This document shows, piece after piece, positions 14,713-42,903 of a stretch of 64,000 nt of DNA. The notes beneath the pieces are model-generated. The model was not told the origin of the DNA. It saw nothing but the letters and a program-made list of their open reading frames with translations, and made no database searches. The DNA is from Pseudomonas purpurea (lineage in GTDB: Bacteria; Pseudomonadota; Gammaproteobacteria; Pseudomonadales; Pseudomonadaceae). The first letter of the stretch is position 1, and the number at the start of each line of letters is the position of its first letter. The translations under genes and the position numbers were made by a program. The stretch lies in assembly GCF_039908635.1 (NCBI RefSeq), contig NZ_CP150918.1, positions 2,723,001 to 2,787,000 of the forward strand, written 5' to 3'.

Positions 14713-15989
14713 CCGCGTCGTTGATTTTTCTGCTGACCATTACCTTGGTGATCTGGCAACCCAAAGGCCTGGGCGTTGGCTGGAGTGCCGTGCTGGGCGC
14801 TGTGCTGGCGCTGTTGGCCGGCGTGGTGCAGGTCAGCGATATTGCGGTGGTCTGGGAGATCATCTGGAACGCCACCGGGACTTTTGTTGCACTGATCATC
14901 ATCAGCCTGCTGCTGGACGAGGCCGGGTTCTTTGCCTGGGCGGCGTTGCATGTTGCGCGTTGGGGGCGCGGCAGCGGACGCAAGCTGTTCGCCTACATGG
15001 TGTTGCTGGGGGCGCTGGTGTCAGCCTTGTTTGCCAATGACGGCGCGGCGCTGATCCTCACGCCGATTGTCATCTCGATGCTGCTGGCGTTGCGTTTTTC
15101 AAAAACCGCGACCCTGGCATTTGTGATGGGCGCCGGGTTTATCGCCGACACCGCGAGCCTGCCGCTGGTGGTGTCGAACCTGGTCAACATTGTTTCGGCG
15201 GACTTTTTTCACATCGGTTTCAATCGCTACGCGGCGGTGATGGTGCCGGTGAACCTGGTGAGTGTCGGCGCGACGCTGGCGGTATTGATGTGGTTTTTTC
15301 GTCGAGACATTCCGCGTGATTATGCTCCCGAAGACCTGGCAGACCCGGCCAGTGCAATCCACGACAAAGCCACGTTCATGGCTGGCTGGTGCGTGTTGGT
15401 GATTTTGCTGCTCGGCTGTTTTGTCCTGGAAGCCTGGGGCATTCCCATCAGTGCAATCTCGGCGGTGTGCGCTGCGTTGCTGTTGGCCATTGCCGCACGA
15501 GGGCACAAGATCTCCACGCGCAAGGTGATGAAAGAGGCGCCCTGGCACATCGTGATTTTTTCGCTGGGCATGTACCTCGTGGTGTACGGCTTGCGCAACG
15601 CGGGCCTGACCGCGTACCTGGCCGGCTGGCTCGACGTTTTTGCCGGTTACGGGGTGTGGGGCGCCGCGATGGGCACCGGGCTGCTGACCGCGCTGCTGTC
15701 CTCGATCATGAACAACCTGCCGACCGTGCTGATTGGCGCCTTGTCGATTGATGCCAGCCAGGCCACGGGGGTGGTGAAGGAGGCGATGGTCTACGCCAAC
15801 GTGATCGGCAGTGACCTGGGGCCGAAAATCACGCCGATCGGCAGCCTGGCCACGTTGCTCTGGCTGCATGTGCTGGAACGCAAGGACATCCTCATCGGTT
15901 GGGGGTACTACTTCAAGGTCGGGATCGTGCTGACGGTGCCGGTATTGCTGGTGACCCTGGCCGCCCTGGCGATGAGGTTGTCCGTTTGA
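14706..15989 (+). CDS. arsB: Arsenite efflux permease ArsB
   Basis: Inner-membrane As(III)/Sb(III)-proton antiporter of 427 aa, close to the length of the E. coli protein. Many hydrophobic helices are evident, with the conserved [15 protein letters not shown] and [18 protein letters not shown] segments and a late [17 protein letters not shown] motif. It overlaps arsR. No arsC or arsH follows: the next gene, on the opposite strand, ends 5 bases after the arsB stop. Arsenate resistance would therefore need a reductase encoded elsewhere. Confidence 0.93.
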
Positions 15990-15994
15990 CGGGT

Positions 15995-16861
15995 TTATTC
16001 CGGGCGCTGGATCATGAAGCCAATGCCCGCAGGTTTGAGGAATAACTCCAGCAAGGTGTCTTGCTGACGGCGTGGGAGGTGCTCGCAGCGCTCAATCAGC
16101 GTCTTCGACCACGCCAGGGCGCTCGGCGCAGGCCAGGGCGCGCCGTTGGCCTCGAAGATCTGGATGAAGTTGAAGCCAGCCTGCTCAACGAGGCCGTAGA
16201 GCTCTTCTACCCGGAAATCGCCGTCGCGAGGGTGATAGACCACGTCGTGAAGGTTGATCAGTTTTTCTTGTTCGGTTTTCTCTTCGCCATAGACCAGCGG
16301 GCGGAAATGCGCCGGGATCAGGTCCTCGATCAGCTTCAATCTGTCGGGGTGGGACGCGTCGATCGCCAGGTGCGTGAGCATTTCGCGCAGATCATGCAGC
16401 TCCCGGCGCCCCAGCGAAGCGTAAGTCCAGAGGTAGCAATAGCCACCTGGTCGCACGAAGTTGAACAGTTTGTTCAAGCCTGCCTGGATGTCATGCAGGT
16501 GATGGAGTACGCCGTGGCAATAGACAAAATCAAAGCCCTTGAGATCGGGATTGTCCTCGTTCAGGTCACGCTGCTCGAACGTCAGGTTGGCGACTTCCCT
16601 GGAGACTTTGAGGTCACGGGCATAACGAATCGAGTTCTGTGAGCGGTCAAAGGCCAGGATTTCAAGCTCCGGGCACTGTTCGGCCCAGTCGACGGTGACG
16701 CAGCCCGTGCCGCAACCGACTTCAAGGGCGCGCCCCTTGATCGCCTTGCTCCTGATCGCCGGGATCAGGAATGTCCCCGCGTAATCGTTGTGGTTGCCAA
16801 AGGTGGGGTAAGGGTATGCCTCGTACATCCCGATCACCTGGTTATCCTTGTCCTTATCCAT
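15995..16861 (-). CDS. Class I SAM-dependent methyltransferase, last gene of putative biosynthetic operon
   Basis: A 288-aa methyltransferase with a clean SAM-binding motif I (ALEVGCGTGCVTVDWA) and the post-II GFDFVYCHGVLHHLHD segment typical of small-molecule methyltransferases. The N-terminal YEAYPYPTFGNHNDY resembles the methyltransferase group found in polysaccharide and secondary-metabolite loci. The start at 16861 is chosen because GGGAG sits five bases before it and an upstream ATG would include that site. It lies 45 bases after the MATE gene in the same operon and is predicted to methylate the operon's product or an intermediate. Acceptor unknown. Confidence 0.78.
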   Translation of the reverse strand: MDKDKDNQVIGMYEAYPYPTFGNHNDYAGTFLIPAIRSKAIKGRALEVGCGTGCVTVDWAEQCPELEILAFDRSQNSIRYARDLKVSREVANLTFEQRDLNEDNPDLKGFDFVYCHGVLHHLHDIQAGLNKLFNFVRPGGYCYLWTYASLGRRELHDLREMLTHLAIDASHPDRLKLIEDLIPAHFRPLVYGEEKTEQEKLINLHDVVYHPRDGDFRVEELYGLVEQAGFNFIQIFEANGAPWPAPSALAWSKTLIERCEHLPRRQQDTLLELFLKPAGIGFMIQRPE

Positions 16862-16906
16862 ACTGACTCCCATTGCAGGTGGTTTGAGCCCGTGCGGCTC
16901 GGTTGA

Positions 16907-18274
16907 TCAATACTCAAGCGTGACGTCCAGCCTGGCCTGGTGGGCATGCTGCTTCCATTGGCCGCTGCGCCATCGGCGGTACATCAGCAGGCCGCGGCAC
17001 CATTCGTCCAGGGTCATGGCGATCCAGATGCCGATCAGCCCCAGTTCAAAGTGTGCGGCGAGTGTCCAGCCGCCGAGCACCATGATTCCCCAGATGGAGA
17101 GGGGCGCGACCAAGAGGATGTAGCGAATATCCCCGGTGGCCCTCAAGGCATTGACCACGACAAAGTTCAGGACCCTGCCGGGCTCTAGAATGAGCCCGAT
17201 GAGCATCAGTTTGGCGCCGGTGGAAATGATCTCGGGGTTGTCGGTGAACAGGGCGAGCAGGAAAGGCGTGGCACACGCCACGGTAATGGACATGGGCACC
17301 GCAATCATCAGGCCGATTTTCAGGCTTCGGTGCAATTGTCGGTTGGCCGCCTCGATGTCCCCGGCGCCGATCATGTGCCCGACGATAATCTCCGTGGCCA
17401 GGCCGATGGCGATGCTGTAGACCATCACCATCAAGACGATCTGAATCGTGTAGGTCAGGGTCGCCAGGGTGTTGCCACCCAGGCTGGCGCACAGGGCGGT
17501 GATGGTCATGTAGCCCAGGAACCAGCAAATGCCTTCGCCTGCCGCTGGCAGCCCCAACTGGAGAATGCGTTTGAAGGTGCGCGGGTCGAAGCTGACGATG
17601 TGCTTGAACTCAAAGACGAAGCCGGTATGGCGTTTCACCAGAAACCACAGGATGCAGCAGGCAATGATCCGGCTGACCACCGTGGAGATGGACACACCCA
17701 ACACCCCGAGTTCGGGAAGGCCGAAGTGCCCGTACAGCAGCAGGTAGTTGCCGCCCAGGGTCAGGATGTTCTGCGCAAGTGCCACGATCATGGGGGCCTT
17801 GGTATGCCCGTTGGCGCGAAGAATCGCACACAGGCATTGCATCTGCGCCTCGATGAAGAGCGTGCCGCCCACCAGCATCAAGAACGGATAGGCCAGTTCG
17901 CGCAAATCGAAGGTCAGGTGCAAGGCCGCGAATATGTCGCCCGGAAACAGCAACACCAAGGCGCTGATGATCAGGCCCAGCCACGTGCAGGCCGTCATCG
18001 CATTCCTGGCGATCCGGTTCGCCCCGGCAGGGTCATTGGCGCCCAGGTGGTGGGTGGTCAGGATGCTCGAACCAATGGCCAGCGGCCCGAACAGCAGAAT
18101 GGCCAGCACATTGATCTGATTGGTCGATCCCACCGCCGCAACGGCCTGGTCCGAGATATGGCTGATCATGAAGGTATCGATCAGCCCGACGGACAAGCGC
18201 AGCAGTTGCTCGATCAGGATCGGCCAGGCCAGGTGCAAGGCACCTCGGCTCATGACTGAGGAGGGGGCGCTCAT
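16907..18274 (-). CDS. MATE family efflux transporter
   Basis: Multidrug and toxin extrusion antiporter, 455 aa with about 12 hydrophobic helices. The N-terminal helix starts LHLAWPILIEQLLRLSVGLIDTFMISHIS, the usual MATE opening, and the two halves repeat the pattern. It begins 4 bases after the YdcF-like gene, so it is part of the same transcript. In this context it is the likely exporter for the product of the operon, giving secretion and self-protection; that role is inference. Confidence 0.85.
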   Translation of the reverse strand: MSAPSSVMSRGALHLAWPILIEQLLRLSVGLIDTFMISHISDQAVAAVGSTNQINVLAILLFGPLAIGSSILTTHHLGANDPAGANRIARNAMTACTWLGLIISALVLLFPGDIFAALHLTFDLRELAYPFLMLVGGTLFIEAQMQCLCAILRANGHTKAPMIVALAQNILTLGGNYLLLYGHFGLPELGVLGVSISTVVSRIIACCILWFLVKRHTGFVFEFKHIVSFDPRTFKRILQLGLPAAGEGICWFLGYMTITALCASLGGNTLATLTYTIQIVLMVMVYSIAIGLATEIIVGHMIGAGDIEAANRQLHRSLKIGLMIAVPMSITVACATPFLLALFTDNPEIISTGAKLMLIGLILEPGRVLNFVVVNALRATGDIRYILLVAPLSIWGIMVLGGWTLAAHFELGLIGIWIAMTLDEWCRGLLMYRRWRSGQWKQHAHQARLDVTLEY

Positions 18275-18278
18275 CGCA

Positions 18279-18932
18279 TCATTCTTGCGCGGCCTTGATC
18301 AAATGGCCGCTGAAACCCTGCTTGACCAGATACTCCCACGCATTGAGAACCGACTCTGGCAGGGCATGTTCGGCCTGGAAGCCGAGCTTTGGGTATTCGA
18401 TGATCCGCTGTATATCCCCGACCATTTCCTCGATCAAACCGTACAGACCGACGATGTTGGAGACATCGGCCGGGAACCGGATGTCCGGTGCGTCCAGGGA
18501 CGCCTGGAGTTCGGGCCAGACTTTTTTCACGACCAGGCCAAGGCGCAAAATGGCATTGGGTTTGGTCAGGACGATGGCGCTGTTCAACTCACCGAACAGC
18601 GCTTTGGTAAAGGCAATGTTCTCACCGAAATTGGTGGCCTTGTCCTCGACAAAAATGGCGCTGGCAGGCACACCCGACTCGAGGGCCAGGCGCCGGAAAA
18701 CGTGGGACTCGGGGTCTTCCCAGAGGTGGTGAGTCCAGTTGCCCTTGTTGCCAGTGAAGATGATCACGGGCGCCAGGCCTTGCTTGTACAGCGCGCAGGC
18801 GTGTTCTCCCACCCTCAGGTCATAAGAACAACAAACGATGATCGCGTCGCTGGGCGTGTGTTGACGGCCTGAAGACATGTAGTCCCAGAGCTGGGTGGCG
18901 CATTGCAGGGTGCGTGTCGGCTTTTCGCTCAT
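18279..18932 (-). CDS. YdcF/DUF218-like protein
   Basis: A 217-aa protein of the ElyC/SanA/YdcF superfamily: DAIIVCCSYDLRVGEHACALYKQGLAPVIIFTGNKGN, then ATNFGENIAFTKAL and a third block AIVLTKPNAILRLGLVVKKVWP. It lacks the membrane anchor of SanA/ElyC and so resembles cytosolic E. coli YdcF, which binds SAM but has no defined reaction. Within this operon it sits between a glycosyltransferase and an exporter, so a tailoring or quality-control role for a small glycoside is conceivable. I cannot assign a reaction. Confidence 0.75.
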   Translation of the reverse strand: MSEKPTRTLQCATQLWDYMSSGRQHTPSDAIIVCCSYDLRVGEHACALYKQGLAPVIIFTGNKGNWTHHLWEDPESHVFRRLALESGVPASAIFVEDKATNFGENIAFTKALFGELNSAIVLTKPNAILRLGLVVKKVWPELQASLDAPDIRFPADVSNIVGLYGLIEEMVGDIQRIIEYPKLGFQAEHALPESVLNAWEYLVKQGFSGHLIKAAQE

Positions 18933-18988
18933 CGTAGGTCCGTTTACGTGGTCGTGGTTGAGGCGGCGTGCAGCTGTTGATCCGGGAT

Positions 18989-19831
18989 TCAGGCGGACAT
19001 CAGGTTAAGGTTTTCCCAGCCTTTTTCGCCGCGCTCCAGAATCACCGGGTCCTTGTGCTTGGCGTACATGTATTCCAGGTTTCGCAAGCCACTGTCGGTG
19101 TTTTCGGTTTCGTTCTTGGGATGGGGATAGTGAATCCCGCAGGCGTTTCGGCACAGTTTGAAGGCAATGCCCTGCTTGTATAGCCGATAGGCCAGCTCAT
19201 CGTCTTCACAGCCCCAGGACTCGAAGCGGTTATCGAACAACCCGACGTCCAGCAGCACCTGGCGTTTGACCGAGGTATGGCACCCCCAGAACAGGGCCCA
19301 CGGGGCGGGCATCCGGTTCATGTCATCGGCAAAGTGGCTGTACACCTCTTCGCGGATGTCCAGGTGGATTTTCTGACGCTCGAAAGTGCGCAACGTGCCT
19401 TCCAGGTCCTGTAGGTCAATGGCCTGGATCAGTTGCCGGGCCGTGGCGTCGTGCTGTTGGAACGCGTAGGTGTAGGCATTGACGGCGATGTCATGGGTGG
19501 TGCTTTCATGGGCGGCCTGATGGCAGCGCAACGCATCCTTGTGCAGCAGAATGCCGGTGTCGATGCCCACGCAGATCTCATGTTTGCTGGAGGCAATGCC
19601 CAGGTTGCGTGCGGCGGCGGCCCTGAACCCGAGATCGTCCTGATAGATGTACTTGATGTCCTGGAACGGCCGGTGGCTGTCGACCACTGCCCGGGTGTCA
19701 TCGGTTGACCCGTCATCGACCACGATGACGTCGTATTGGTCTTTGGCCAGCGTCTGCTTGCGCAGTGCGTCCAGCGTGAAATCCAGCAGTTGCCGCCGAT
19801 TGTAGGTCGGAATAATGACACTGATTTTCAT
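18989..19831 (-). CDS. Family 2 glycosyltransferase with C-terminal GT7-like domain
   Basis: GT-A fold glycosyltransferase of 280 aa. The N-terminal half opens ISVIIPTYNRRQLLDFTLDAL with the nucleotide-binding VVDDGSTDDT. The C-terminal half has the galactosyltransferase-like block ESWGCEDDELAYRLYKQG seen in GT2 proteins with a GT7 C-terminal domain. The position where the metal-binding DxD is expected reads GIDTGIL, so the second acidic residue is missing. The ATG at 19831 was chosen because it begins the canonical beta strand; GGGAGG lies 12 bases upstream. The preceding HAD gene ends within 30 bases of the start. Confidence 0.82.
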   Translation of the reverse strand: MKISVIIPTYNRRQLLDFTLDALRKQTLAKDQYDVIVVDDGSTDDTRAVVDSHRPFQDIKYIYQDDLGFRAAAARNLGIASSKHEICVGIDTGILLHKDALRCHQAAHESTTHDIAVNAYTYAFQQHDATARQLIQAIDLQDLEGTLRTFERQKIHLDIREEVYSHFADDMNRMPAPWALFWGCHTSVKRQVLLDVGLFDNRFESWGCEDDELAYRLYKQGIAFKLCRNACGIHYPHPKNETENTDSGLRNLEYMYAKHKDPVILERGEKGWENLNLMSA

Positions 19832-19860
19832 GATGTTCGGGCGCCTCCCTGGCAGATTTT

Positions 19861-20505
19861 TCAATCGTTATGCAGCGTCAGTGTTTCAAAGGTGTCAATG
19901 ATCTGGCTGGCACCGTGACTGATCAGCTCTTGCCCGAGGCTGGCTGTTTTCGCGTAGCCATAGGTGTAACAGCGGGCCGCCACCGCCGATTTTACGCCGG
20001 AGATCGAGTCTTCGATGGCCGTCGCATGCTCGACATTCAAGGCGTTTTTGGCCTGGACATACGGATCGCCCGCCGGCTTGCCATGTTTGACGTCACTGCG
20101 GGTGATGATCACGTCGAACATCGACGTGAGGTCATGGATGTTCAGGACATGCTCGACCCGTTCCCGCCAACTGCTGGTCACCAGCCCCAACGGCATGGCC
20201 TGGGCCTTGCTCTGTGTCATCAACTCCTGCATGCCGACGTTCAGTGGTGAGAAAGCGTCCTTCTCAAGTTCGAACACCCGTTGATACAGCTGTTGCCGGT
20301 GGTGCGGGGCCAGGTCGGAAAACAGCCGGAGCAGGGTCTGTGGACCGGGAATGCCATGGATGTGGTCCTCTATCTGCTGGGCGTCAAGCGTGTAGCCAAA
20401 CTGCTTCGCGGCCTCGGCCCATGCCCATTCGATCGCTTCCCGTGAGTCGATCAGCACACCGTCCATGTCGAGCAGCAGGGCTGTTTTCTTCGCTGGCGTT
20501 GGCAT
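19861..20505 (-). CDS. HAD family phosphatase/phosphomutase (beta-phosphoglucomutase-like)
   Basis: A 214-aa haloacid-dehalogenase-fold protein with motif I LLLDMDGVLIDS (nucleophile Asp13, acid Asp15), a helical cap, motif II around LGLVTSSWRERV, and motif III/IV KHGKPAGDPYVQA and AIEDSISGVKSA. This arrangement fits phosphoglycolate/beta-phosphoglucomutase-like enzymes acting on small sugar phosphates. It lies 9 bases after the carbamoyltransferase gene. The likely role is dephosphorylation or phosphoryl shift of a sugar intermediate in the same pathway; the substrate is unknown. Confidence 0.8.
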   Translation of the reverse strand: MPTPAKKTALLLDMDGVLIDSREAIEWAWAEAAKQFGYTLDAQQIEDHIHGIPGPQTLLRLFSDLAPHHRQQLYQRVFELEKDAFSPLNVGMQELMTQSKAQAMPLGLVTSSWRERVEHVLNIHDLTSMFDVIITRSDVKHGKPAGDPYVQAKNALNVEHATAIEDSISGVKSAVAARCYTYGYAKTASLGQELISHGASQIIDTFETLTLHND

Positions 20506-20514
20506 GACGCCTCC

Positions 20515-22236
20515 TTACTTTCGTTTCACGACGAGCTGGTCGTTGATGAACAGGGCTTCGACGATCCCGTCATGCACCGTGGTGGCGGCTTCCTGCGGGG
20601 TGTTGATGATCGGTTCTTCATGGCGGTTGTACGACGTATTGATCAAGGACGGTTCACCGGTCAACTGAAACCACTTGTTCAGCAGTTCATAAAGGAACGG
20701 GTCGGCTTTTTCGGAGATGATTTGCGGCCGGGCAGTGCCGTCCACGTGTACCACGGCAGGGCACATTTCTTTCATCAGGTCGGTGCAGTCATAGGTCATG
20801 GTCATGCTGTGCGCCGCACGGTCATCGACAGACCATTGGTTGTAGCAGAGGTGGGCCAGGTTTTCCGGGGTGATGGGGGCAAACGGCATGAACTCGGTTC
20901 GGTTCAACCGCTTGTTCAACCAGTCATTGATGGTTTTATCGCGTGCATGAAAGATGATCGAGCGTTTGCACAGGGCTCGCGGGCCGTACTCCATTGCGCC
21001 GCGCACCACGCCGATGATTTTGCTCTGGCCGATCAGGTCGATCATTTCGTCCTGAATGTTTGCACCGTAGACATTCAAACCGTCTCTGGACAGTTCACCA
21101 CCGATCATGTCCGTGTCATCGTGGTCCGGGCCCAGGGCCATGGTGTCCAGGTTGGGGCTCAACCGGTACTTTTTCGCCGAAGCCGCGACGGCAGCGGCCA
21201 GCGCCAGGCCGCCATCGCCCATGCAGGGCAGCACGTAGACGGTGTTGACACCCGGGAGCTCGCGTATGCGCTGATTGAGTTTCACATTGCCGAAGACACC
21301 CCCGGCCAGGCATACGTTGCGCGGACGGTCCACTTCAATATGGTTGGAAACGATGGCGGTAATCAGGTCTTCGAGGTGTTTCTGTGCGGCGGCGGCAATG
21401 TCTTCCGGGCGGTACTTGGCGACTTCCAGCCGCAGCTCCTCGGAGAATTCATCGTAATAAGGTTGAAACCACGGCCCGCAGTTGGCGCGCAGCCTGCCGT
21501 TTTCCAGGCCGATCATTTTCTGCATCAGGGGCATGCAGGTTTCAGGGTTGCCTTTTGCCGCCAGGCCCGTGACTTTGCCTTCATGGCGGTTGGGCAGGTA
21601 GCCCAGGAGTTTGGTGATGCGCCCGTAAAAGTAACCGAGGCTGTCGGTCGAGGTTTCGCGTTGCAACACCTGTGCGTTCAGTTGGGTGTAGTCCGTGACG
21701 GTGAGGGACTGGAAGTCCCCCCGGCCATCACATGTCACCACCAGGGCATCATCGAACCCGGAGCAGATGTATGCGCCCAGTGCGTGGGTTTCATGGTGGT
21801 CGAGCATGTGGGTCGAGCCACTGAAGCCGCTGGTAGTTGCAAAATCGACAAACTCGGTGCGTGCACCTTTGTCGTTTTTTATTTCATTGTGAATGCGCTC
21901 GTTTATGCAGTTCCAAGTGACAGTATCGTTGCTGTCAACTTCACGCAGGCGTTCGGTATATAAGTTCAAGTGCAGTTCGGGGTTGAACCCCGCCGACCAT
22001 CCATAAGCCAGGTCTGTCACTTCGTGGATACTCAGGTTGGCGGCTTTGAGTACATGTTCGATGGACTTGTGCGGCCATCCCTTATGCCCCTTGATTCGAC
22101 TGAAACGTTCTTCTTGTACGGCCGCGATGATTTTGCCGTTAATAATCAGGCAGGCGCTGGAGTCATCGTTATTGGTGACGCCAAGGATCGCGTGAGTGTT
22201 CGGGCGAGCGGTGACAGTATCCAGAGTTGCTTCCAT
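20515..22236 (-). CDS. NodU/CmcH-type O-carbamoyltransferase
   Basis: Transfers a carbamoyl group from carbamoyl phosphate, via carbamoyl-adenylate, to a hydroxyl group. The 573-aa product has both family domains: the Kae1-like N-terminal half with the metal site DHHETHALGAY (His147, His148, Glu149, His151) and the C-terminal half with GAMEYGPRALCKRS and EPSLINTSYNRHEEPI. Relatives carbamoylate Nod factors (NodU), cephamycin (CmcH), tobramycin (TobZ) and novobiocin (NovN). The canonical PRALGxRS reads PRALCKRS here. The start at 22236 follows a GGAGA site; a GTG four codons earlier is less likely. It is the first gene of the tight six-gene operon. Confidence 0.88.
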   Translation of the reverse strand: MEATLDTVTARPNTHAILGVTNNDDSSACLIINGKIIAAVQEERFSRIKGHKGWPHKSIEHVLKAANLSIHEVTDLAYGWSAGFNPELHLNLYTERLREVDSNDTVTWNCINERIHNEIKNDKGARTEFVDFATTSGFSGSTHMLDHHETHALGAYICSGFDDALVVTCDGRGDFQSLTVTDYTQLNAQVLQRETSTDSLGYFYGRITKLLGYLPNRHEGKVTGLAAKGNPETCMPLMQKMIGLENGRLRANCGPWFQPYYDEFSEELRLEVAKYRPEDIAAAAQKHLEDLITAIVSNHIEVDRPRNVCLAGGVFGNVKLNQRIRELPGVNTVYVLPCMGDGGLALAAAVAASAKKYRLSPNLDTMALGPDHDDTDMIGGELSRDGLNVYGANIQDEMIDLIGQSKIIGVVRGAMEYGPRALCKRSIIFHARDKTINDWLNKRLNRTEFMPFAPITPENLAHLCYNQWSVDDRAAHSMTMTYDCTDLMKEMCPAVVHVDGTARPQIISEKADPFLYELLNKWFQLTGEPSLINTSYNRHEEPIINTPQEAATTVHDGIVEALFINDQLVVKRK

Positions 22237-22409
22237 ACATCTCTCCACTAATTAGTTATTTTTAAACAGTGAGTGCAACGGACTGATGAACTGTTCAGGC
22301 CGTTGTCGAGTGCATCGGGTGGTGCTCGGCACGTTGCGTGATGAGCATGGGCATCTGTTACGAACGGGGGGATTGACCCTGCGGCGGCTCCCCCGTCCTC
22401 GCGCTCTGC

Positions 22410-24611
22410 CTAAGGGGCCAGGCGTTGCTCTTTCAGTTCTATCTGGGTCGACAGCGGGTGCTCCAGGGCATTGATGCCGGCACTGATGCGGTACTGGCCG
22501 GGGCGGATGTGCCAGCCGCTGTTCGTCGAGTCGAATCGGGCCAGCAGGCGCGGATCGACAGTCACGGACACCTGGCCTGTTTCGCCGGGGGCCAGGGTGA
22601 TGCGTTGCCATCCCGCCAGGCGCGCGGGGACGCCTTCAAGCCCCTTGACGTAAAACTGCGGGGTGTCGGTCCCGGCGCGGCCGCCGTGGTTGGTCACCGC
22701 CATGCGGATCACCAGTCGAGCGTCTTCGTCGACGCTGGCGTGGAGCTGGTCGTAGCTGAAACGGGTATAGGACAGCCCGTGACCAAAGGGGAACAGCGGC
22801 GTCTTGCCTTCACGGGCGAACCACTTGTAGCCCACGTCCGCGCCTTCTATGTCGTAGCTCACATCAAACAGGCCCCGGCGCGGTTCGCCCGGGTTGGACG
22901 TGGTGGTCGCCGGGTCCTGCATCAGCGGGCGTGGCAACTGTTGCTCGTCCTGGGGGAAGGTCATGGGCAGGCGCCCGGACGGATTGACCCGGCCAAACAA
23001 AACGCCGGCAATCGCCTGGCCGCCCCTGGAACCGGAATACCAGGCCTCGACCACCGCTGGCACCTGCTTGAGCCACGGCATCTTCACTGGCCCGCCGGTT
23101 TCCAGTACCACCACGGTCCTGGGGTTTGCGGCGGCAATCGCTTGAATCAGTCGTTCCTGATCGTTGGGCAGGCTCAGGTCGCGGGCGTCGATGGCCTCGG
23201 CCATCCACTGTTCGGCAAACAGGATGACCGCATCGGCCGTACCGGCCAGTTGCGTGGCTTTCGCCAGGTCCGAACCGTCGTTGTAGACGATTTCAGCCTT
23301 GCCGGCGTGCGCGCGAATCGCGTCCAGCGGCGAGGAGGGGTGATAAATGATCGTGTCGATAAACGGATTGTTTTTGACCGGCGAGGGTACCCGCAGGCTG
23401 CCCACGGGAATGACCTGGCTGGAGCCGCCGCCCGACAGCACGCCTTTGTCGGCATGGCGGCCGATCACCACAATGCGCTTGAGGTTCTTGGCCAGGGGCA
23501 ATTGGTTGTGGTCGTTCTTGAGCAGCACGATGCCTTGCTCGGCAATTCTCTGGGCGACGCGAGCATGGCTGTCGAAGTCGACGCCGGCAACGGTCGCCGG
23601 GTTGTCCAGGCTGCCCACGGCGAACAGGCTGCGCAGGATGCGACTGACCATGTCATCGAGCCGGGCCTGCGATACGGCACCGTCGGTCACGGCTTTTTTC
23701 AGCGGCGCGCCGAAGAAGACCTCGGGGTCCAGGTTCTCGCCCGACTGTTGGTCCAGCCCGGCCAACACGGCTTTTTCCGTGGAGTGGGTGGCGCCCCAGT
23801 CGGACATGACCCAGCCTGGGTAATTCCAGTCGCCTTTCAATACCTGGTTGATCAGGAAATCGTTTTCTTCGGCGTACACACCGTTGATGCGGTTGTAGCC
23901 GGTCATCACCGCGCCAGGCTTGCCCGTTTCGATGGCCAGTTGAAATGCCAGCAGGTCCGACTCACGGGCCGCAGCTTCCTGAAGGTTGGAACTGACCATG
24001 ACTTTGCCGGTTTCCTGGGCATTCAGCGCAAAGTGCTTGATGGTTGACACCACATTGCGGCTTTGAATGCCCGCGATGCTCTGGCCGGCCAGGGTGCCTG
24101 CCAGCAGCGGGTCTTCGCCCAGGTACTCGAAGTTACGGCCGTTGCGCGGCTCGCGGGTGAGGTTCACACCGCCGGCGAGCATCACTGCGAAGCCTTTGGC
24201 GTGCGCTTCCTGGCCGATCACCTCGCCTTGGGCCCGGGCCAGCGCAGGGTCGAATGTTGCTGCCAATGCCAGCCCTGAAGGCATGGCCGTTGCGTTGTCG
24301 CCGACACGAATGCCGCTGGGGTTGGCGACGCCCAGGCTCGCGTCGCTGATGTGCAGGGCCGGCAGGTTGAGGCGGGAGATCCCGGGCCAGTAGGCCGCGG
24401 TCCCCAGCGCGCCCGGCGGTATGGGGGTGCCCCTGACCGGCAGCCCGAAAGGCAGGTGCAGCAGCGAGATTTTTTCGTCCAGGGTCATGGACTGGGTCAG
24501 CGCCGTGGCGCGCTGTTGCGGCGTGCCTTCAGCGGGTTGACCGGCCGCCATGGCAGGCGTGGCGCTGAGCAGTGAGAGCGAAAGAAGGTAGCATCCGGCT
24601 TTAATGATCAT
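22410..24611 (-). CDS. Secreted family 3 glycoside hydrolase (beta-glucosidase)
   Basis: Predicted periplasmic beta-glucosidase of 733 aa. A signal peptide (CYLLSLSLLSATPAMA) precedes the GH3 N-terminal barrel with STIKHFALNAQET and the catalytic nucleophile Asp271 in PGWVMSDWGATHS. The GH3 C-terminal domain (about 370-580) and a fibronectin-III-like domain (about 640-720) follow. It is 173 bases upstream of the carbamoyltransferase gene in the same direction. It could be independent sugar metabolism, or it could deglycosylate the operon's product outside the cytoplasm. The 22.25-22.41 kb gap holds a weak G/C-rich hairpin without a T-run. Confidence 0.88.
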   Translation of the reverse strand: MIIKAGCYLLSLSLLSATPAMAAGQPAEGTPQQRATALTQSMTLDEKISLLHLPFGLPVRGTPIPPGALGTAAYWPGISRLNLPALHISDASLGVANPSGIRVGDNATAMPSGLALAATFDPALARAQGEVIGQEAHAKGFAVMLAGGVNLTREPRNGRNFEYLGEDPLLAGTLAGQSIAGIQSRNVVSTIKHFALNAQETGKVMVSSNLQEAAARESDLLAFQLAIETGKPGAVMTGYNRINGVYAEENDFLINQVLKGDWNYPGWVMSDWGATHSTEKAVLAGLDQQSGENLDPEVFFGAPLKKAVTDGAVSQARLDDMVSRILRSLFAVGSLDNPATVAGVDFDSHARVAQRIAEQGIVLLKNDHNQLPLAKNLKRIVVIGRHADKGVLSGGGSSQVIPVGSLRVPSPVKNNPFIDTIIYHPSSPLDAIRAHAGKAEIVYNDGSDLAKATQLAGTADAVILFAEQWMAEAIDARDLSLPNDQERLIQAIAAANPRTVVVLETGGPVKMPWLKQVPAVVEAWYSGSRGGQAIAGVLFGRVNPSGRLPMTFPQDEQQLPRPLMQDPATTTSNPGEPRRGLFDVSYDIEGADVGYKWFAREGKTPLFPFGHGLSYTRFSYDQLHASVDEDARLVIRMAVTNHGGRAGTDTPQFYVKGLEGVPARLAGWQRITLAPGETGQVSVTVDPRLLARFDSTNSGWHIRPGQYRISAGINALEHPLSTQIELKEQRLAP

Positions 24612-25109
24612 CGACGTTTTCCTGGAGACGGGCCCTGTGGAAAGTCCGGGCCATGCGTCTTCTAAAGCTTGTCTGATATTAAGTAGGGGTCTGACGCATA
24701 GGTCTTTGTATACAGTGCGTCATCAATAGGCATCTGCTGTTATTAGAGGTGGCGAGCGAACTTTTCTTGAGCGTGCAGTTATCAATGGCGCTCGTCGCAT
24801 TCGTATATAGCGGATCCGAATATGTAGGAAGGCAGATTCTGTGACACCTACCAGATTTGGTAGGTGTTATTTTTTTGAAGTCATGAGCGGGTTGGGTGGT
24901 ATGCAGTGCGTCAATCGCGACTTGCCCAGTATGTGCGGCATTTAAGTACTCGCTGGCCAATAACAGCCCGTCGGCAGAAGTTAAAGCGGCTTTCCATGTT
25001 CGTTTGGATACTGTTTTTGCATAACGTTATTCTTTTTTCAAATACGCCATTAACGGTAATAAATATATGGGGGTACGCCTGTGCTCAAACCGTTTGAATC
25101 TGCACCCGC
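24612..25109 (+). other. AT-rich gene-free stretch with an orphan terminator
   Basis: About 500 bases between the GH3 start and the DUF1853 stop. It is clearly poorer in GC than its neighbours. Two short open frames exist (24679-24960 minus, 24906-25097 plus), but neither has a ribosome site, codon bias or family-like sequence. The only strong signal is a plus-strand terminator hairpin near 24844. It marks the right edge of the accessory segment. Confidence 0.6.
24844..24876 (+). terminator. Orphan rho-independent terminator
   Basis: Perfect 9-bp stem ACACCTACC / GGTAGGTGT with a 6-base loop, followed by TATTTTTTT on the plus strand. No plus-strand gene precedes it for more than 8 kb, so it either ends an unannotated small RNA or is a remnant. 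Confidence 0.7.
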
Positions 25110-26057
25110 TCAAACCCCCGGGACGTTCGGCCAGCGGTCAGCGACCAGAAACAACCGTTCGGCCTCTTCCCAGTTCCCGGAAGGGGTTTGCACCAGGCGC
25201 ACCAGTAATTGCGCCGGAGCATCGACGGCCAGTGCGTCAAGCCATTGCGCCAGTTGTGCTTCGTCCCACGTGTGCTCGGGGGAGTAGTGCGCCGGGGCAA
25301 GCCAGGCGTGGCGTGGCAGGGGTTGCCAGAGGCCGGGCGGGCTCTGGGCGATGAAGGCAGGCCAGTCGCGCTGATGCAGCCAGCGCCCGTGCAAGTGTTG
25401 CGGGTGGGCGCCGAGGGGCGGCGAGGCCTTGCCGGGCCAGGGGTAGAGCAGGTATCCGCCGAGCCACAGGTGTGCGCTGAAGTGTTGAATGTCCAGGGCG
25501 CCGAGCATTTCCAGGCTTTCGGCCCGGGCGGAGATCGGCAGTTGGTGCTCGCTCAGGTGGGCCAGCTTGCGGTCAAGCCGGTCATGGCAACCGGGTCCCA
25601 ACCACTGCTCGGTGTGCTGGCCATTGCCGTTTTGCGGTCCGAGGTACAGTTTGATGGCCAGTTCCAGGTGGTGGACTCCGTCACGATCACGCAGCAGCAT
25701 GTCCAGTTCGCCCAGGGTATGTCCGCCGCGCCGGATCGGCAGGTTGGCCGCCAGTAGCTGCACGCCTGGCGCGTGCTGTACCGCAAATTGCCACAAGCGT
25801 TCGTAATAGAGGCCCAGGCGATGGGTTCTGCCCAATTGCAGCCAGTGCTGCAAGGTGTGACTGTCCTGGTCCAGTTGCCGGAGCCAATGCGCCAACAGCT
25901 CGGGTGCCTGCACCCAGTCGCTGCCGGCCAGCGGGTGGCGCTGTGGCCAGGGCGTCTGGTCGAGCATGGGTGGGGCGAGAATGACCCACGCGAGATCGCG
26001 CACGGGCGGCTGGCGCAACTGACGCGGCAGGTCGAGCAAGTCGGGGAACAGGATCAT
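25110..26057 (-). CDS. DUF1853 family protein
   Basis: A 315-aa protein matching the proteobacterial DUF1853 family: an [13 protein letters not shown] start, [15 protein letters not shown], then [30 protein letters not shown]. The last block (E-x-D ... E-x-A-x-K) has the spacing of a PD-(D/E)XK nuclease-like core, so a nucleic-acid role is possible; this is pattern inference, not known. It is divergent from nadK with about 105 bases between starts. No clear ribosome site precedes its ATG. Confidence 0.8.
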
Positions 26058-38174: not shown

Positions 38175-38325
38175 TAGCCGGTATCAGCGATAGGGCGTTT
38201 AATTTTCACCGGGACAAGGGAATCAGCAGCTCCTGTCGTCATGAACAGCGGGAGAGGTTGATGCGATCTCAGGCGTAGAGCGGCTGAGTTCAAATTAAGT
38301 GTTTAACGGTGATGGAGCGTACGCA

Positions 38326-40368
38326 ATGACGGCTAAACAGGATTTAGGAACAGCGCCACTGACAGCCTGGGAACTGGCTGAACAATCCCGGGCTAAACTT
38401 CGTTTGGGGGCGGATGAGCCTGGCTCGTCGGCTGCTGAAACCACTATTGAAGGTTTGCTGGTTGATAATCTGGTACCCAAGTCGATGCTTAATGTGGGAG
38501 CGATTAAGGCGCTACTGAGCGAATACGTTGGGGATGCAATTAATCCTCCTCATGATGGAGACACGTATCGAGTCAGGCTCAGGGGGCCAAACCTTCCACT
38601 AACCATCATTGTTCCTTCGACAGACCTTGGGCTAGTTGCTGATCGGAAATGGCCGAAGGAGATAGATTTCCCGACCGACAAGTTGCTCGATAATTGGAGC
38701 ACATCGCAAACCTCATCGACAGTGTATGAGGTACGCATCGAGGTCAAGAGCGGCACAGGCAATAACTGGAGCACCCCACCTTATGTGAAACTCGGGGTGG
38801 ACCGTTATCAACCCTACAAGAACAAACAGACAGACGCGGTCAATCAGCCGACAGGTGGAGTGTTTCGAAGCCCGCTTCCAGGCAAGGACCTGGACAATGA
38901 CTGGCTGGACAGGAACACTTTAGTGGAAGTGAACATTCCGGTTAACTATGCGTTCTATAGGTCCGATGACCAGGTCGAGGTGTTCTTCTCAGAGAACTAT
39001 TCACAATCAGCACCATCAGACCTTGTGTTCTCTGGCGCGTTACCCGCTAATGGCCAAGTGTTTTTTTCAGTGGCCGGGCTCACTCTGCAAAATAAAAAAT
39101 ATTACCTGTATTACCGGTTGACTGATGTCTCCGGGAACGTCAGTAGTGTTTCGCGTGATCAGTTCATAGAAGTGAATGTCCATCCGGCAGCCGTACTTGA
39201 TAAGCCGAAAGTCCCCAGTGCCATAAAGCCGGATACGCTCGACCTTGGCGATCTGAAAGGCACCGTTGTTGTAGAAGTGACACGGCCTGTAAACGGGCTG
39301 AGCAATGACAAGGTCGAAGGGTTCATCTCGGACCTTGCCGGTACGAAAAAATACTCGTTGGGGACAAGGGACCTGGGAAGTCAGTTGTTCCTGACCTTCC
39401 CAATGTACTATCACGAACACTTGGCGCCATTGTTTGGTGATGCTAAAGGTTCCGTCGAAGTCATGGCATATTACGAACACAAACGGGGTATCCAGGCCGC
39501 CAGGCCTTCACCTCAAGAAACTTTTCTTCTGAACTTTAATTACGCAGGTCCGATTTCCGAAGAATTGCCAAGTGATACGAACAAGAACATGGTCAATGTA
39601 ACCGTTATCGGCGCATCTAATGTGCCGAACAAACTAACGGCAGAAGACTTGAAAGGCGCTGTCTACATTTCCACCCCTATGGTGGAAGCAGGTAATGGCT
39701 GGAAGTCCGGGGCGAATGAGCGTGTCTTTATGTGGTACGGGGGGAAACAGGTTTTCCAAAAAAATCTGGAAGGTGATGAAACTGAACTCAGGGCAACTAT
39801 CACCCGTGAGATCCTCGAAGAAGTTGGCTCTGGAATCATTAAGGCTAACTGGACCATCGAATACCCAAATCAACCTAACAGAATGTCGTCTCAGTTACAG
39901 ACGGTAACCGTTGAAGAAGCAAGTGTGACGTTCCCGCCGCCCACGATTCCGATCGAAGATGGGGATGTGGTCAACTGTGAGGCGCTGGGGGGCGATGAAG
40001 AGTCTACAGATCGTTGGCTGAAAGTAGAGGTCGATGTAGATCCGTTATACATGCAGAACAAGGTGGTTGTTGTCCGTTCGATCGGTACATTAGACAAAGA
40101 GGGTCTGCAACCAATACTCGGGACTGAGTTCTATGGGCCCTATACAGTTGGTGGAGCGGAGACGGAGTTTGCGGTCGACATCAAACCGTACCTTCAGTAC
40201 ATCAAGCCTATCCAGCCTGCACCGGGCAGTGGCCAACCCAATGGCTACATCAAAGTGTGGTACGAAGTGCCGGTGGGTGGACAGACGATACCGTCGGCCT
40301 CTGTTATCAAGGAAGTGGACTTGATTGGCGACGGACATTACTGCGAAGGAACTCCCACCCGTAAGTAA
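38326..40368 (+). CDS. Large hypothetical protein with predicted tandem beta-sandwich domains
   Basis: A 680-aa protein without signal peptide, membrane segment or recognised catalytic motif. From about residue 60 on it is rich in alternating beta-strand pattern with recurring edge sequences such as YLYYRLTDVSGNVSSVS and LSVVIKEV-type ends, as in Ig-like/FN3-like repeats. The last part repeats a strand-rich VEVDVDPLY...VVVRSIGTL unit. GGAG lies 8 bases before the ATG at 38326. Its codon use is visibly more AT-rich than the flanking kgu genes, suggesting transfer. It precedes an autotransporter in the same direction but a hairpin separates them. Function unknown. Confidence 0.7.
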   Translation: MTAKQDLGTAPLTAWELAEQSRAKLRLGADEPGSSAAETTIEGLLVDNLVPKSMLNVGAIKALLSEYVGDAINPPHDGDTYRVRLRGPNLPLTIIVPSTDLGLVADRKWPKEIDFPTDKLLDNWSTSQTSSTVYEVRIEVKSGTGNNWSTPPYVKLGVDRYQPYKNKQTDAVNQPTGGVFRSPLPGKDLDNDWLDRNTLVEVNIPVNYAFYRSDDQVEVFFSENYSQSAPSDLVFSGALPANGQVFFSVAGLTLQNKKYYLYYRLTDVSGNVSSVSRDQFIEVNVHPAAVLDKPKVPSAIKPDTLDLGDLKGTVVVEVTRPVNGLSNDKVEGFISDLAGTKKYSLGTRDLGSQLFLTFPMYYHEHLAPLFGDAKGSVEVMAYYEHKRGIQAARPSPQETFLLNFNYAGPISEELPSDTNKNMVNVTVIGASNVPNKLTAEDLKGAVYISTPMVEAGNGWKSGANERVFMWYGGKQVFQKNLEGDETELRATITREILEEVGSGIIKANWTIEYPNQPNRMSSQLQTVTVEEASVTFPPPTIPIEDGDVVNCEALGGDEESTDRWLKVEVDVDPLYMQNKVVVVRSIGTLDKEGLQPILGTEFYGPYTVGGAETEFAVDIKPYLQYIKPIQPAPGSGQPNGYIKVWYEVPVGGQTIPSASVIKEVDLIGDGHYCEGTPTRK

Positions 40369-40392
40369 ATAAGGACAAGTCTCGCCACAAAG

Positions 40393-40416
40393 GGCGGAAA
40401 CACCTGTGTTTCCGCC
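40393..40416 (+). terminator. Probable terminator after the 38326 gene
   Basis: Stem GGCGGAAACA / TGTTTCCGCC with a 2-3 base loop, 25 bases past the stop. The following T-run is weak (TTGCATCTATTT). Confidence 0.6.
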
Positions 40417-40563
40417 TTGCATCTATTTGCAGGAATACACCTGCAAGCCGCCAAGAAAAGTCCTACATACGATAGGTGTTTGCATCCGTAGTCTCTCGGC
40501 GCTGACGGGCAGAGCCGGTTTCTGCCGAACTCTTCGAATCCTTCCATTTGGAAAGATCATCAG

Positions 40564-42903
40564 ATGGACGTATCCACGATGTCGATGAACACCCGCTTTA
40601 ACTTGAAACCTCTTGCCATTGCATTGGGAGGGTCTTCGCTGGCTCTGATGTCGTTGATGGCCAGCGAAGCCAGTGCTCGAGACCTGATCGGGGAACATTG
40701 GGCGATCGACGCCAGTGCTCCGGTTGAGTCCTGGGCGTTGGACAGGGACGCAATGTTGACCATCAATGGCGGTGAGGCTTTGGATATTCAGGCCTCGCAG
40801 TCGACGCTGAACGTTTTGGGAGGTACTACCCAGCACATTTATGCCGAGAGCGGTTCCAGTGTCCGCCTCGACAATGCCACCGTGAACAATACGGTCGGCG
40901 ACGCCGGACTCGAATTGGTCGAGAGCACGGCAACGATTACCAACAGCACGATTTCCAGTATTAACACGGGTCTGTTGGTGGCTCATTTTGAAGGCTCCAC
41001 AACGGGATCGACAGCCACCGTCAGCCAGAGCCACATTAGCGGACAACAAACCGGCGCCTGGGTGAACGCGTTCAGTCACCTCGGCCTGTCGAACTCGACG
41101 ATCGAGGGTACAGGCGCTATCAGTAACGGGCTGAAACTGCGAAGTGGTTCGGCGTCGGCCAGTGATCGTTCGCAGATCATCGGCGGGCAAAACGGCGTGA
41201 CGATTGAAGTCGGAGCGTTGGGCAAAAGCAGCCAGTTGGTGCTGGACAACTCGCACGTTGAGGGCAAAACCGGCTCCGCGATCGTCGTTGACAATGCCGG
41301 ACATGCCGGCAGCACGGATATTCAAATCCTCAACGGCTCCACCCTTGTGGGCGGCAATGGCACTATCGTGGACGTGCGGCGTGGCGCCTCGGTGAACATG
41401 ACCGTTGGCAATAGCGCGCTGGAGGGGAATGTCCAGGTGGCTGGCAACAGCAGCGCCCACCTGAACTTCACTCAGGGCGCACTGACCGGTGATGTGGTCG
41501 CCGAGGCCGGTAGCACTGCAACGGTGCAATTGCAGCAGGGCTCGCACCTGACCGGGCGCATGGAAAATGTCGCGGCGGTAGGCATCGACCATCAGTCCGT
41601 ATGGACCCTGACCGGCAACAGTCAGGTCGGTGAACTGGCGATGGACGGCGGCGCTGTCAGGTTTGGCGACCGTGATGCCTACTATCAACTGGACGTGGCC
41701 CACCTGTCGGGTGAAGGCCTGTTTTACATGGGCACCCATTTCACCACAGGCGAAACGGACGTCTTGAATGTCACGGGTACGGCCAGTGGTCAACATGAAC
41801 TGTTGATTGAAAGCACGGGTGTCGATCCGGCCAGTGGTCAGCCGATTACCGTGGTGCGCACCGAGGGCGGCGATGCGGTTTTTTCGTTGGCTAATACCAA
41901 TGGCGCGGTCGATCTGGGTACATATTCCTACGGCCTCAGTAAAGATGTCGCCAACAATGACTGGTTCCTTGATCCGACAAAACGCACTGTCAGCCCGTCC
42001 ACCCGCGTGGTCAGTGCGTTGTTCAACACGGCACCCACCGTTTGGTATGGCGAGCTGACGTCATTGCGCAGCCGCATGGGCGAAGTGCGGTTCAACACCG
42101 ACAAGTCCGGGGCCTGGAGTCGTGTTTACGGCAACAAGTACAACGTTGATGATGCCTACGGTGGCGGGTATCGACAAACGCAACAAGGCTTCGCCCTGGG
42201 CGCCGATGCGCCGGTTGCGTTCGGCGATGGTCAATGGTTGCTGGGTGTGATGGCGGGGCACAGCACCTCGGACCTGGACCTGAGTCAGGGCAGCTCCGGG
42301 TCGGTCAAAAGTTACTACGTGGGCAGCTATCTGACCTGGCTGGATGACGTGAGTGGGTACTACGCCGATGGCGTTATCAAACTCAACCGCTTCCAGAACA
42401 ACGCGAAAGTTGCAATGAGCGACGGTCAGCGTGCCAAAGGCGATTACAACACGACCGGTCTGGGCGGCTCGGTGGAGTTCGGGCGGCACATCAAGCTCAA
42501 GGATGGTTACTTTGTCGAGCCGTTTACTCAGTGGTCGACTGTGTTTGTTCAGGGGCAGAGTTATGACCTGGACAATGGCTTGCAGGCCAGGGGCGACCGG
42601 TCTTACTCGTTGCTGGGCAAGGCTGGCGTGACGGCAGGCCGCGACATTCCAATGAGTCGTGGTGGCACTGTGCAGCCCTATGTGCGCGCCGCTGTGGCCC
42701 ACGAGTTTTCCAAGAGCAATGAGTTCAAGGTCAATGACAATGCGTTCAACCATGACCTTTCCGGATCGCGTGTCGAGTTGGGCGCAGGCATCGCCATGAG
42801 TTTGACCGATCGCTTAAGTGTGAATGCCGAGGTCGAGTACATGAACGGCAACAACATTGAAATGCCGATCGGCGGGACGGTAGGCATTCAATTCAAGTGG
42901 TAA
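40564..42903 (+). CDS. Autotransporter with pertactin-like passenger (type Va secretion)
   Basis: A 779-aa surface protein. An N-terminal secretion signal (about 1-38, with LGGSSLALMSLMASEASA) precedes a passenger of parallel-beta-helix type: repeated short segments rich in N, G, S and T with phrases like LDNATVNNTVGDAGLELVESTATITNSTI. A linker near 480 leads to the C-terminal beta-barrel (about 490-779) with AWSRVYGNKYNV, and it ends in QFKW, an aromatic C-terminus suited to BAM insertion. No protease motif is evident, so adhesion or biofilm function is more likely. The start at 40564 has a GGAAAG site 10 bases away; ATGs at 40579 and 40585 are alternatives. Confidence 0.88.
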   Translation: MDVSTMSMNTRFNLKPLAIALGGSSLALMSLMASEASARDLIGEHWAIDASAPVESWALDRDAMLTINGGEALDIQASQSTLNVLGGTTQHIYAESGSSVRLDNATVNNTVGDAGLELVESTATITNSTISSINTGLLVAHFEGSTTGSTATVSQSHISGQQTGAWVNAFSHLGLSNSTIEGTGAISNGLKLRSGSASASDRSQIIGGQNGVTIEVGALGKSSQLVLDNSHVEGKTGSAIVVDNAGHAGSTDIQILNGSTLVGGNGTIVDVRRGASVNMTVGNSALEGNVQVAGNSSAHLNFTQGALTGDVVAEAGSTATVQLQQGSHLTGRMENVAAVGIDHQSVWTLTGNSQVGELAMDGGAVRFGDRDAYYQLDVAHLSGEGLFYMGTHFTTGETDVLNVTGTASGQHELLIESTGVDPASGQPITVVRTEGGDAVFSLANTNGAVDLGTYSYGLSKDVANNDWFLDPTKRTVSPSTRVVSALFNTAPTVWYGELTSLRSRMGEVRFNTDKSGAWSRVYGNKYNVDDAYGGGYRQTQQGFALGADAPVAFGDGQWLLGVMAGHSTSDLDLSQGSSGSVKSYYVGSYLTWLDDVSGYYADGVIKLNRFQNNAKVAMSDGQRAKGDYNTTGLGGSVEFGRHIKLKDGYFVEPFTQWSTVFVQGQSYDLDNGLQARGDRSYSLLGKAGVTAGRDIPMSRGGTVQPYVRAAVAHEFSKSNEFKVNDNAFNHDLSGSRVELGAGIAMSLTDRLSVNAEVEYMNGNNIEMPIGGTVGIQFKW

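Follow-up and report, generated by a model that had tools for sequence, protein, structure and literature searches.

A putative accessory operon for an exported O-carbamoylated glycoside, inserted between arsB and a DUF1853 gene of a Pseudomonas genome

The closest counterpart of the locus described here is a cassette encoding an O-carbamoyltransferase (CT), an MFS protein, a HAD phosphatase and a YdcF protein, which we detected in about 20 genomes (Pseudomonas and one Xylophilus). By sequence it fits PA2066-PA2069 of P. aeruginosa, strain PA7 (L040) being used in place of PAO1 for this comparison. Our literature search returned no product for PA2066-PA2069; the passages on these loci in PMC7775676 and PMC12607905 hold expression tables only, in one of which all four genes are down (PMC7775676). 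For the gene set of our locus, the search returned no product, substrate or expression datum. With the TobZ, NovN, GdmN and NodU clusters our locus has in common the Carbam_trans_N/C architecture and the ligand motifs, but it differs from them in that none of its seven genes belongs to a scaffold family for a polyketide, aminoglycoside, coumarin or Nod factor. The NodU model yields 121.2 bits on our CT, far under its cut-off of 1000. Saxitoxin-type clusters combine a CT with a MATE protein; this type was set aside, as a PKS-like core family is absent from the seven genes of our locus. In the DesR/OleR systems of macrolide reactivation, as here, a GH3 enzyme with a signal-like start is encoded beside a glycosyltransferase gene, whereas our locus has no macrolide genes and a GT2 enzyme instead of a GT1 enzyme, presumably the type found in the macrolide systems. 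Finally, according to the available text of PMC8064604, a CTase has been recycled among variant small-molecule clusters (gvg and gvg-like) of Pseudomonas and other bacteria; like our locus, the cluster for formylaminooxyvinylglycine (gvg) and its relatives of unknown product carry such an enzyme. The gvg cluster, compared by its description in that text, was set aside because its formyltransferase (gvgI), amidinotransferase (gvgD) and LysE (gvgK) families are absent from our seven genes.

The locus lies in a window of 64,000 nt (the whole stretch of DNA that was analysed) and comprises the following features:

15990..25115, no strand: insertion, from the arsB/DUF1853 adjacency elsewhere and from blastn and alignment versus four fetched empty sites
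15995..16873, minus strand: class I SAM-dependent methyltransferase (MT; Methyltransf_12, 71.5 bits; also Methyltransf_31 and Methyltransf_25; no NCBIfam model above its cut-off)
16907..18274, minus strand: MATE-family exporter (MatE, 162.1 bits; TIGR00797, 207.6 bits, cut-off 147.4)
18279..18932, minus strand: YdcF/DUF218 protein (PF02698, 54.1 bits)
18989..19831, minus strand: GT2 glycosyltransferase, chondroitin-synthase-like (Glycos_transf_2, Glyco_tranf_2_2, Glyco_transf_7C)
19861..20505, minus strand: HAD phosphatase, beta-phosphoglucomutase-like (HAD_2, 94.5 bits)
20515..22236, minus strand: CT of the TobZ/NodU family, operon gene 1 (Carbam_trans_N/C, TobZ match)
22410..24611, minus strand: GH3 beta-glucosidase-like enzyme, 733 aa, probably secreted or periplasmic (Pfam GH3 N/C and Fn3-like)
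24612..25109, no strand: low-GC spacer, no recognised gene

As proposed in an earlier, sequence-only reading, all six operon ORFs are found on the minus strand at these coordinates, 5 bp separate arsB from the MT gene, and the five intergenic gaps do not exceed 56 bp (CT-HAD 9, HAD-GT2 29, GT2-YdcF 56, YdcF-MATE 4 and MATE-MT 33 bp). Gaps of 4-56 bp and the absence of any strand reversal suggest one transcript, in support of the single co-directional operon postulated there. The GH3 gene has the same orientation and lies 173 bp upstream of the CT gene. Also in line with that reading, Pfam (families counted only above curated cut-offs) assigned none of the seven genes to NRPS/PKS, nucleotide-sugar or regulator families.

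The suspicion that the block is an island was borne out as well, since it is without counterpart in the arsB-DUF1853 sites of relatives. ArsB and DUF1853 genes are adjacent in 13 of the 31 other genomes with an ArsB match, whereas in the window they are separated by an insertion of ~9.1 kb consisting of the six-gene operon and the GH3 gene. Its left end is the arsB stop codon, with homology to the empty sites stopping at 15987; the right end is at or just before the DUF1853 stop codon, where homology restarts at 25116-25118. The presumed "AT-rich scar" at 24612-25109 indeed has 47% GC versus 56-66% in the 11 genes measured, and contains a terminator-like hairpin of 13 pairs on the plus strand (24841-24870). 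An 8-bp direct repeat near both ends (CCGTTTGA, 15982 and 25090) was rejected, its length being that expected by chance (shuffle mean 8.0). In a check for mobility, no tRNA was found in the window; tblastn of 72,556 plasmid records gave no plasmid-borne CT relatives at 1e-60.

The CT starts at ATG 22236, with GTG 22248 as a possible alternative. Its domains span the whole length (Carbam_trans_N, 125.7 bits, residues 21-354; Carbam_trans_C, 161.5 bits, residues 405-575), and the structures of TobZ (E 2.4e-54), NovN and GdmN were matched. Numbered from GTG 22248, the protein contains the motifs HHETHA (151-156), CDGRG (173-177) and MGDGG (343-347), whose residues H151, H155, D174 and D345 correspond, by motif and spacing and not by structure, to the metal ligands H133, H137, D156 and D333 of GdmN as given in the available text of PMC9633730. 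With domains and ligand motifs (HxxxH, D, D) intact, the TobZ-type assignment holds: judged by these features, the enzyme is a class III (TobZ-type) O-carbamoyltransferase, for which ATP-dependent carbamoyl transfer to a hydroxyl group is predicted. In the large genome draws for CT, GH3 and GT2, apparently at most 2-6 candidates were scored per genome. On this basis, the GT2 had no match at 1e-30 in any of 389 further genomes drawn from the order, and the CT was matched at 1e-100 in five of the 398 genomes drawn from the phylum, the source genome included (38-41% identity in the other four). When 179 genomes were drawn from the order, the CT was matched in the source genome alone. The stretches fetched around the four CTs of the phylum draw contained no HAD and no YdcF gene, but weak MT matches in two cases (43 and 49 bits) and in one a weak GT2 match (62 bits), 5.5 kb off.

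The link to the PA2066-PA2069-type cassette is provided by three proteins: CT (52-54% identity), HAD (39-48%) and YdcF (49-56%). In all three cassette-bearing genomes compared, the best match of the island HAD was the cassette HAD (145-152 bits, next match 40-41 bits). The HAD protein contains the motifs DMDGV, VTSS, GKPAGDP and IEDS, which we take to be catalytic, as we do DDGSTDD and WGCEDD in the GT2 and MSDWG at residue 269 of the GH3. An AlphaFold2 model of the YdcF protein (mean pLDDT 95.8) matched E. coli YdcF (3ca8; TM 0.80, E 7.2e-10), and the structure comparison gave no ligand clue beyond this protein. YdcF loci were collected by exact hits to either of two peptide patterns, a scan that may omit the records closest to the source genome. 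Among 45 such loci of named genomes, 15 encode a CT in the flanking sequence retrieved (at most 10 kb), all of them together with HAD; an MFS-cluster gene is present in 14 of these, with Pfam confirmation on one such locus. YdcF occurs without CT in the other 30, of which 28 also are without HAD, some loci being short at a contig end. In the genus draw, CT, HAD and YdcF were found together at all nine Pseudomonas CT loci, four of which, judged from contig size, are the same as named loci. By sequence comparison, the CT, HAD and YdcF of the island are specific homologues of the cassette genes. The conserved co-occurrence that the sequence-only reading named as a check applies to CT, HAD and YdcF, and probably to CT and GT2; no other genome in our searches showed all six genes in this order. 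Its remark that no described pathway has this gene set overlooked the CT-HAD-YdcF trio of the cassette.

As in the 15 named cassette loci, the island HAD gene directly precedes that of YdcF and the CT gene is upstream. Unlike the cassette, the island encodes a MATE and not an MFS protein (no MFS family among its seven genes by Pfam) and adds GT2, methyltransferase and GH3; HAD follows CT after 9 bp with no MFS gene between, MATE comes after YdcF, and the CT sits in another part of the CT tree.

With moderate confidence, we read the island as an accessory operon whose product would be a small O-carbamoylated and methylated glycoside destined for export, representing an elaborated variant of the CT-MFS-HAD-YdcF cassette. 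We infer the "carbamoyl-glycoside" product from the enzyme families, and substrate, step order, product and transport direction are to be understood as predicted. The HAD protein would dephosphorylate a phosphorylated precursor drawn from primary metabolism, which would account for the lack of a scaffold enzyme gene. The C-terminal YrdC-like domain of the CT would convert carbamoyl phosphate and ATP to carbamoyl-AMP, and its N-terminal Kae1-like domain would use this to carbamoylate a small sugar or polyol at a hydroxyl. GT2 may use a housekeeping UDP-sugar to attach a second sugar, the methyltransferase may add a methyl group, and MATE would export the product, replacing the MFS pump of the cassette. 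Pathways of this kind could be missed by cluster finders that require an NRPS/PKS-like core. An orphan operon is now tied to an uncharacterised P. aeruginosa cassette, which offers a comparative handle, namely one core (CT, HAD, YdcF) in two versions with different exporters and added enzymes. Solving either product would shed light on the other and might assign a pathway role to a DUF218/YdcF protein.

We consider it unlikely that the operon instead modifies a surface glycan (LPS or capsule). The source genome has a second CT at 594758 (30% identity to the island CT), and some CT match, mostly of ~27-32% identity and taken by us as largely of LPS-core type, was obtained in 42 of 57 sampled genomes. 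The GT2 (start ATG 19831; TTG 19864 in the ORF tool) resembles polysaccharide synthases, with a match to chondroitin synthase in the PDB (2z87/2z86, E 2.7e-33), and the papers found on DUF218 relatives deal with the envelope. However, nucleotide-sugar, initiating or lipid-carrier transferase, polymerase and ligase families are absent among the seven insertion genes, the exporter is a PF01554 MATE protein, and the sister cassette has an MFS protein.

Rather improbable is a true pathway limited to the CT-HAD-YdcF trio, with GT2, MATE and MT as unrelated passengers of the island. None of the 45 YdcF loci, the 15 cassette loci included, gave a match to any of these three at 1e-4, and the full gene set was seen nowhere else. 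Against this stand the gaps pointing to one transcript and the apparent linkage of CT and GT2 in metagenomes. Among the best 120 CT and the best 119 GT2 matches (one further GT2 match had no usable contig size), three contigs appear to be shared, as judged from equal-sized contigs in both match lists and not from read contigs. Their CT ranks are 1, 2 and 6 and their GT2 ranks 1, 6 and 5; the CTs concerned are P0001, P0002 and P0006, with longest contigs of 12,789, 11,656 and 12,070 bases. Two are diverged cases, with CT/GT2 identities of 56/46% and 53/50%. None of the three was matched in the YdcF list, whose rows give only the longest contig per cluster. In a CT tree (quick method, midpoint root), all three GT2-linked CTs fall within the nine-row group of the window CT (SH-aLRT 98); as the match lists are ordered by similarity to the window, close placement in the tree is favoured. 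By label shuffling, their clustering lacks significance, since 300 of 500 shuffles gave values as low, with six labelled rows only. P0006 sits on a long branch whose position is unsure, and the path from the window CT, P0001 aside, is no shorter to its own group than to some outside rows (path lengths: P0003 1.57, P0005 1.58, P0002 1.59). From the apparent shared contigs and the tree group, CT and GT2 probably belong to one pathway.

The role of GH3 as a pathway member, suggested earlier, was not confirmed: homologues (45-58% identity) occur in seven other Pseudomonas genomes, all without CT, and in none of nine others with CT. GH3 may therefore be a passenger; a product-unmasking enzyme is likewise possible. 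At four of the seven loci no recognisable common neighbours were seen, with genes called by a simple codon-score caller that left large gaps at some loci. A DesR-like self-resistance, in which GT2 would glycosylate the carbamoylated compound inside, MATE would export the inactive glycoside and secreted GH3 would deglycosylate it outside, is highly doubtful: GH3 lies in the same insertion and orientation close to the CT gene and starts with a signal-peptide-like stretch (judged from sequence without a signal-peptide program), but this distribution of homologues argues against it, the glycosyltransferase is GT2 by Pfam and not of the inactivating GT1 type, and the best PDB match, DesR (4i3g, 365.5 bits), scores barely above another beta-glucosidase (7ms2, 356.6 bits). 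A long shot would be a new class of small carbamoylated, methylated glycosides, built without a classical scaffold enzyme from a primary-metabolic sugar phosphate, which MATE would export in glycosylated, masked form and the co-inherited GH3 would unmask outside the cell, with the PA2066-PA2069-type cassette making a simpler parent compound. The GC content of the GH3 gene (64.5%) is above that of the six operon genes (56.3-61.0%), a further point against the DesR-like scheme.

A GH3 gene and a compact operon of six genes share the minus strand between arsB and the DUF1853 gene, in the following order:

22410-24611, minus strand: GH3 gene, 173 bp before the next gene
20515-22236, minus strand: O-carbamoyltransferase (CT) gene
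then, on the minus strand: phosphatase-like (HAD), glycosyltransferase (GT2), DUF218 protein (YdcF), exporter-family (MATE) and methyltransferase (MT) genes; successive gaps from CT to MT of 9, 29, 56, 4 and 33 bp

The convergent arsB gene lies 5 bp from the operon end. All seven genes have clear Pfam families (Carbam_trans_N/C, HAD_2, Glycos_transf_2 plus Glyco_transf_7C, DUF218, MatE, Methyltransf_12 and GH3), and catalytic motifs are found in CT, HAD, GT2 and GH3. The one-strand, six-gene operon described by the sequence-only reading, with its gaps of 56 bp or less and its family assignments, is thereby borne out. No NCBIfam equivalog model scored above its cut-off for the seven genes; subfamily models did so for MATE and HAD only.

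The proposal that the block is an island also held. Homology to relatives in blastn ends at 15987 and restarts at 25116-25118, delimiting ~9.1 kb, the GH3 gene included. This block is absent from four of five fetched relatives (L086, L087, L088 and L090), in which the DUF1853 side comes ~10-145 bp after arsB; in the fifth (L089) this interval holds 1.9 kb that give no blastn match to arsB. Since the spacer is longer in three of the four empty sites than at the right end in the window, the right junction is placed only approximately. We also searched 57 genomes with the DUF1853/NAD-kinase side (DNA) and ArsB (protein): ArsB matched in 31 other genomes, and in 13 of these 8-304 bp separate arsB from the DUF1853 match; in the remaining 18 the two are far apart or on different contigs. 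None of the 56 other genomes had a match to this GH3 at 1e-100. GC content is 56.3-61.0% in the six genes, 64.5% in GH3 and 47.2% in the spacer. The 64-kb window contains no tRNA genes, and an 8-bp repeat near both block ends has the length expected by chance. On the plus strand, positions 24841-24870 hold a terminator-like hairpin of 13 pairs that ends in a T tail; no gene on that strand was recognised immediately before it.

Scanning 84,980 species genomes with a pattern derived from the YdcF alignment yielded 45 loci. CT is present in 15 of them (52-54% identity), always with HAD (39-48%) directly before YdcF; two loci have a HAD match without CT, and in 28 YdcF stands alone within the fetched flanking DNA. 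In this set, co-occurrence was found for CT, HAD and YdcF; GT2, MATE and MT had no match at 1e-4 in any of the 45 loci. The CT-bearing loci belong to Pseudomonas (14, including P. aeruginosa PA7, L040) and Xylophilus (one, L053), and 14 of the 15 carry an MFS-cluster gene; for L100, a locus of the same type, the MFS, HAD and DUF218 assignments were confirmed by Pfam. Within the genus, CT was detected at E 1e-100 in 10 of 398 genomes, the window's own included, and all nine others have CT, HAD and YdcF together. Four of these nine loci are taken to be the same as named loci of the YdcF scan; allowing for this overlap, the cassette is present in about 20 distinct genomes. The kinship of the window HAD is specific, because in all three genomes tested the cassette HAD scored 145-152 bits and the next HAD 40-41 bits. 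Judged from sequence, the core of the window operon (CT, HAD, YdcF) is a recurrent cassette without a solved product. The remark of the sequence-only reading that it knew of no described pathway with this gene set overlooks the cassette; the operon is a variant of a kind already known, though uncharacterised.

In gene order (CT-MFS-HAD-YdcF) the cassette agrees with PA2069-PA2068-PA2067-PA2066 of P. aeruginosa. PMC7775676 lists these as a probable carbamoyl transferase, an MFS transporter, a hydrolase and a hypothetical protein, and its expression table for a medicine that inhibits quorum sensing gives negative values for all four. PA2067-PA2069 appear in a MexT-regulon table (PMC12607905). 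Literature searches found no product of PA2066-PA2069. In nine of the 15 cassette loci an Amidohydro_3 gene (cluster C5; Pfam on L100) lies within 7 kb of YdcF, for example at L024:10652-12106 and L100:10341-11798; it has no counterpart in the window operon. Another uncharacterised CT neighbourhood is that of L104, where the CT (41%) has a Glyco_trans_1_2 protein, a methyltransferase and a radical SAM/SPASM protein next to it.

In a quick, midpoint-rooted tree of 121 CTs, the window CT and P0001, which are 95% identical, form a pair within a group of nine rows (SH-aLRT 98), and the cassette CTs of Pseudomonas (P0034 and P0041, for example) lie apart from this group; beyond P0001, the window CT is about as far from its own group as from rows outside. 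Among the best matches, exactly three contig sizes are common to CT (ranks 1, 2 and 6) and GT2 (ranks 1, 6 and 5). CT and YdcF have two in common, each with a CT that the tree places among those of the cassette, and GT2 and YdcF have none. The three GT2-linked CTs all fall inside the window's group, a clustering that is not significant on label shuffling (300 of 500 as low, with six labelled rows only); the placement of P0006, on a long branch, is uncertain. A CT-GT2 link is probable from these data, and we think that such a pair defines a separate branch of these pathways, chiefly on the grounds that the three size matches all lie in the top six of both lists and that no other CT-GT2 pair coincides. 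The closest solved structure to GT2 is a chondroitin synthase, and a search of 389 further genomes of the order at 1e-30 gave no other GT2 match.

Class III carbamoyltransferases are described as adenylating carbamoyl phosphate with ATP in the YrdC-like domain, followed by transfer to the acceptor in the Kae1-like domain (PMC9633730). With CT accompanied by HAD, GT2, MT and MATE, the product would most likely be a small glycoside, O-carbamoylated and methylated, that is built on a phosphorylated primary metabolite and exported. It is possible that GH3 takes part, in that GT2 would glycosylate the compound in the cell, MATE export it and GH3 remove the sugar outside, in a DesR-like manner; other beta-glucosidases score nearly as high as the best GH3 structure match (4i3g). 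GH3 homologues of 45-58% identity occur in seven other Pseudomonas genomes, none of them among the nine others with CT, and GH3 may be a passenger.

The AlphaFold2 model of YdcF (mean pLDDT 95.8) matches E. coli YdcF (3ca8, TM 0.80), with no other match reaching E 0.001 in the PDB search; 35 columns are invariant across the 38 aligned sequences. YdcF/DUF218 relatives (40-55%) without CT or HAD matches (L023, L030, L041, L042, L045, L052, L056, L057, L059, L060 and L063-L065) come from Planctomycetota, Aquitalea and Halomonas-type genomes; this YdcF subfamily therefore functions outside the carbamoyl cassette as well.

Elsewhere in the window, GC per kb falls to 0.50-0.60 at 38-44 kb, lower than in most other parts, which points to a further acquired block; there (38299-42903) a 689-aa ORF that matches no Pfam family precedes a pertactin-type autotransporter. 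The ORF at 44485-45459 (minus strand) matches nothing but the final ~256 positions of ACR_tran and so represents just the C-terminal part of an RND pump gene.
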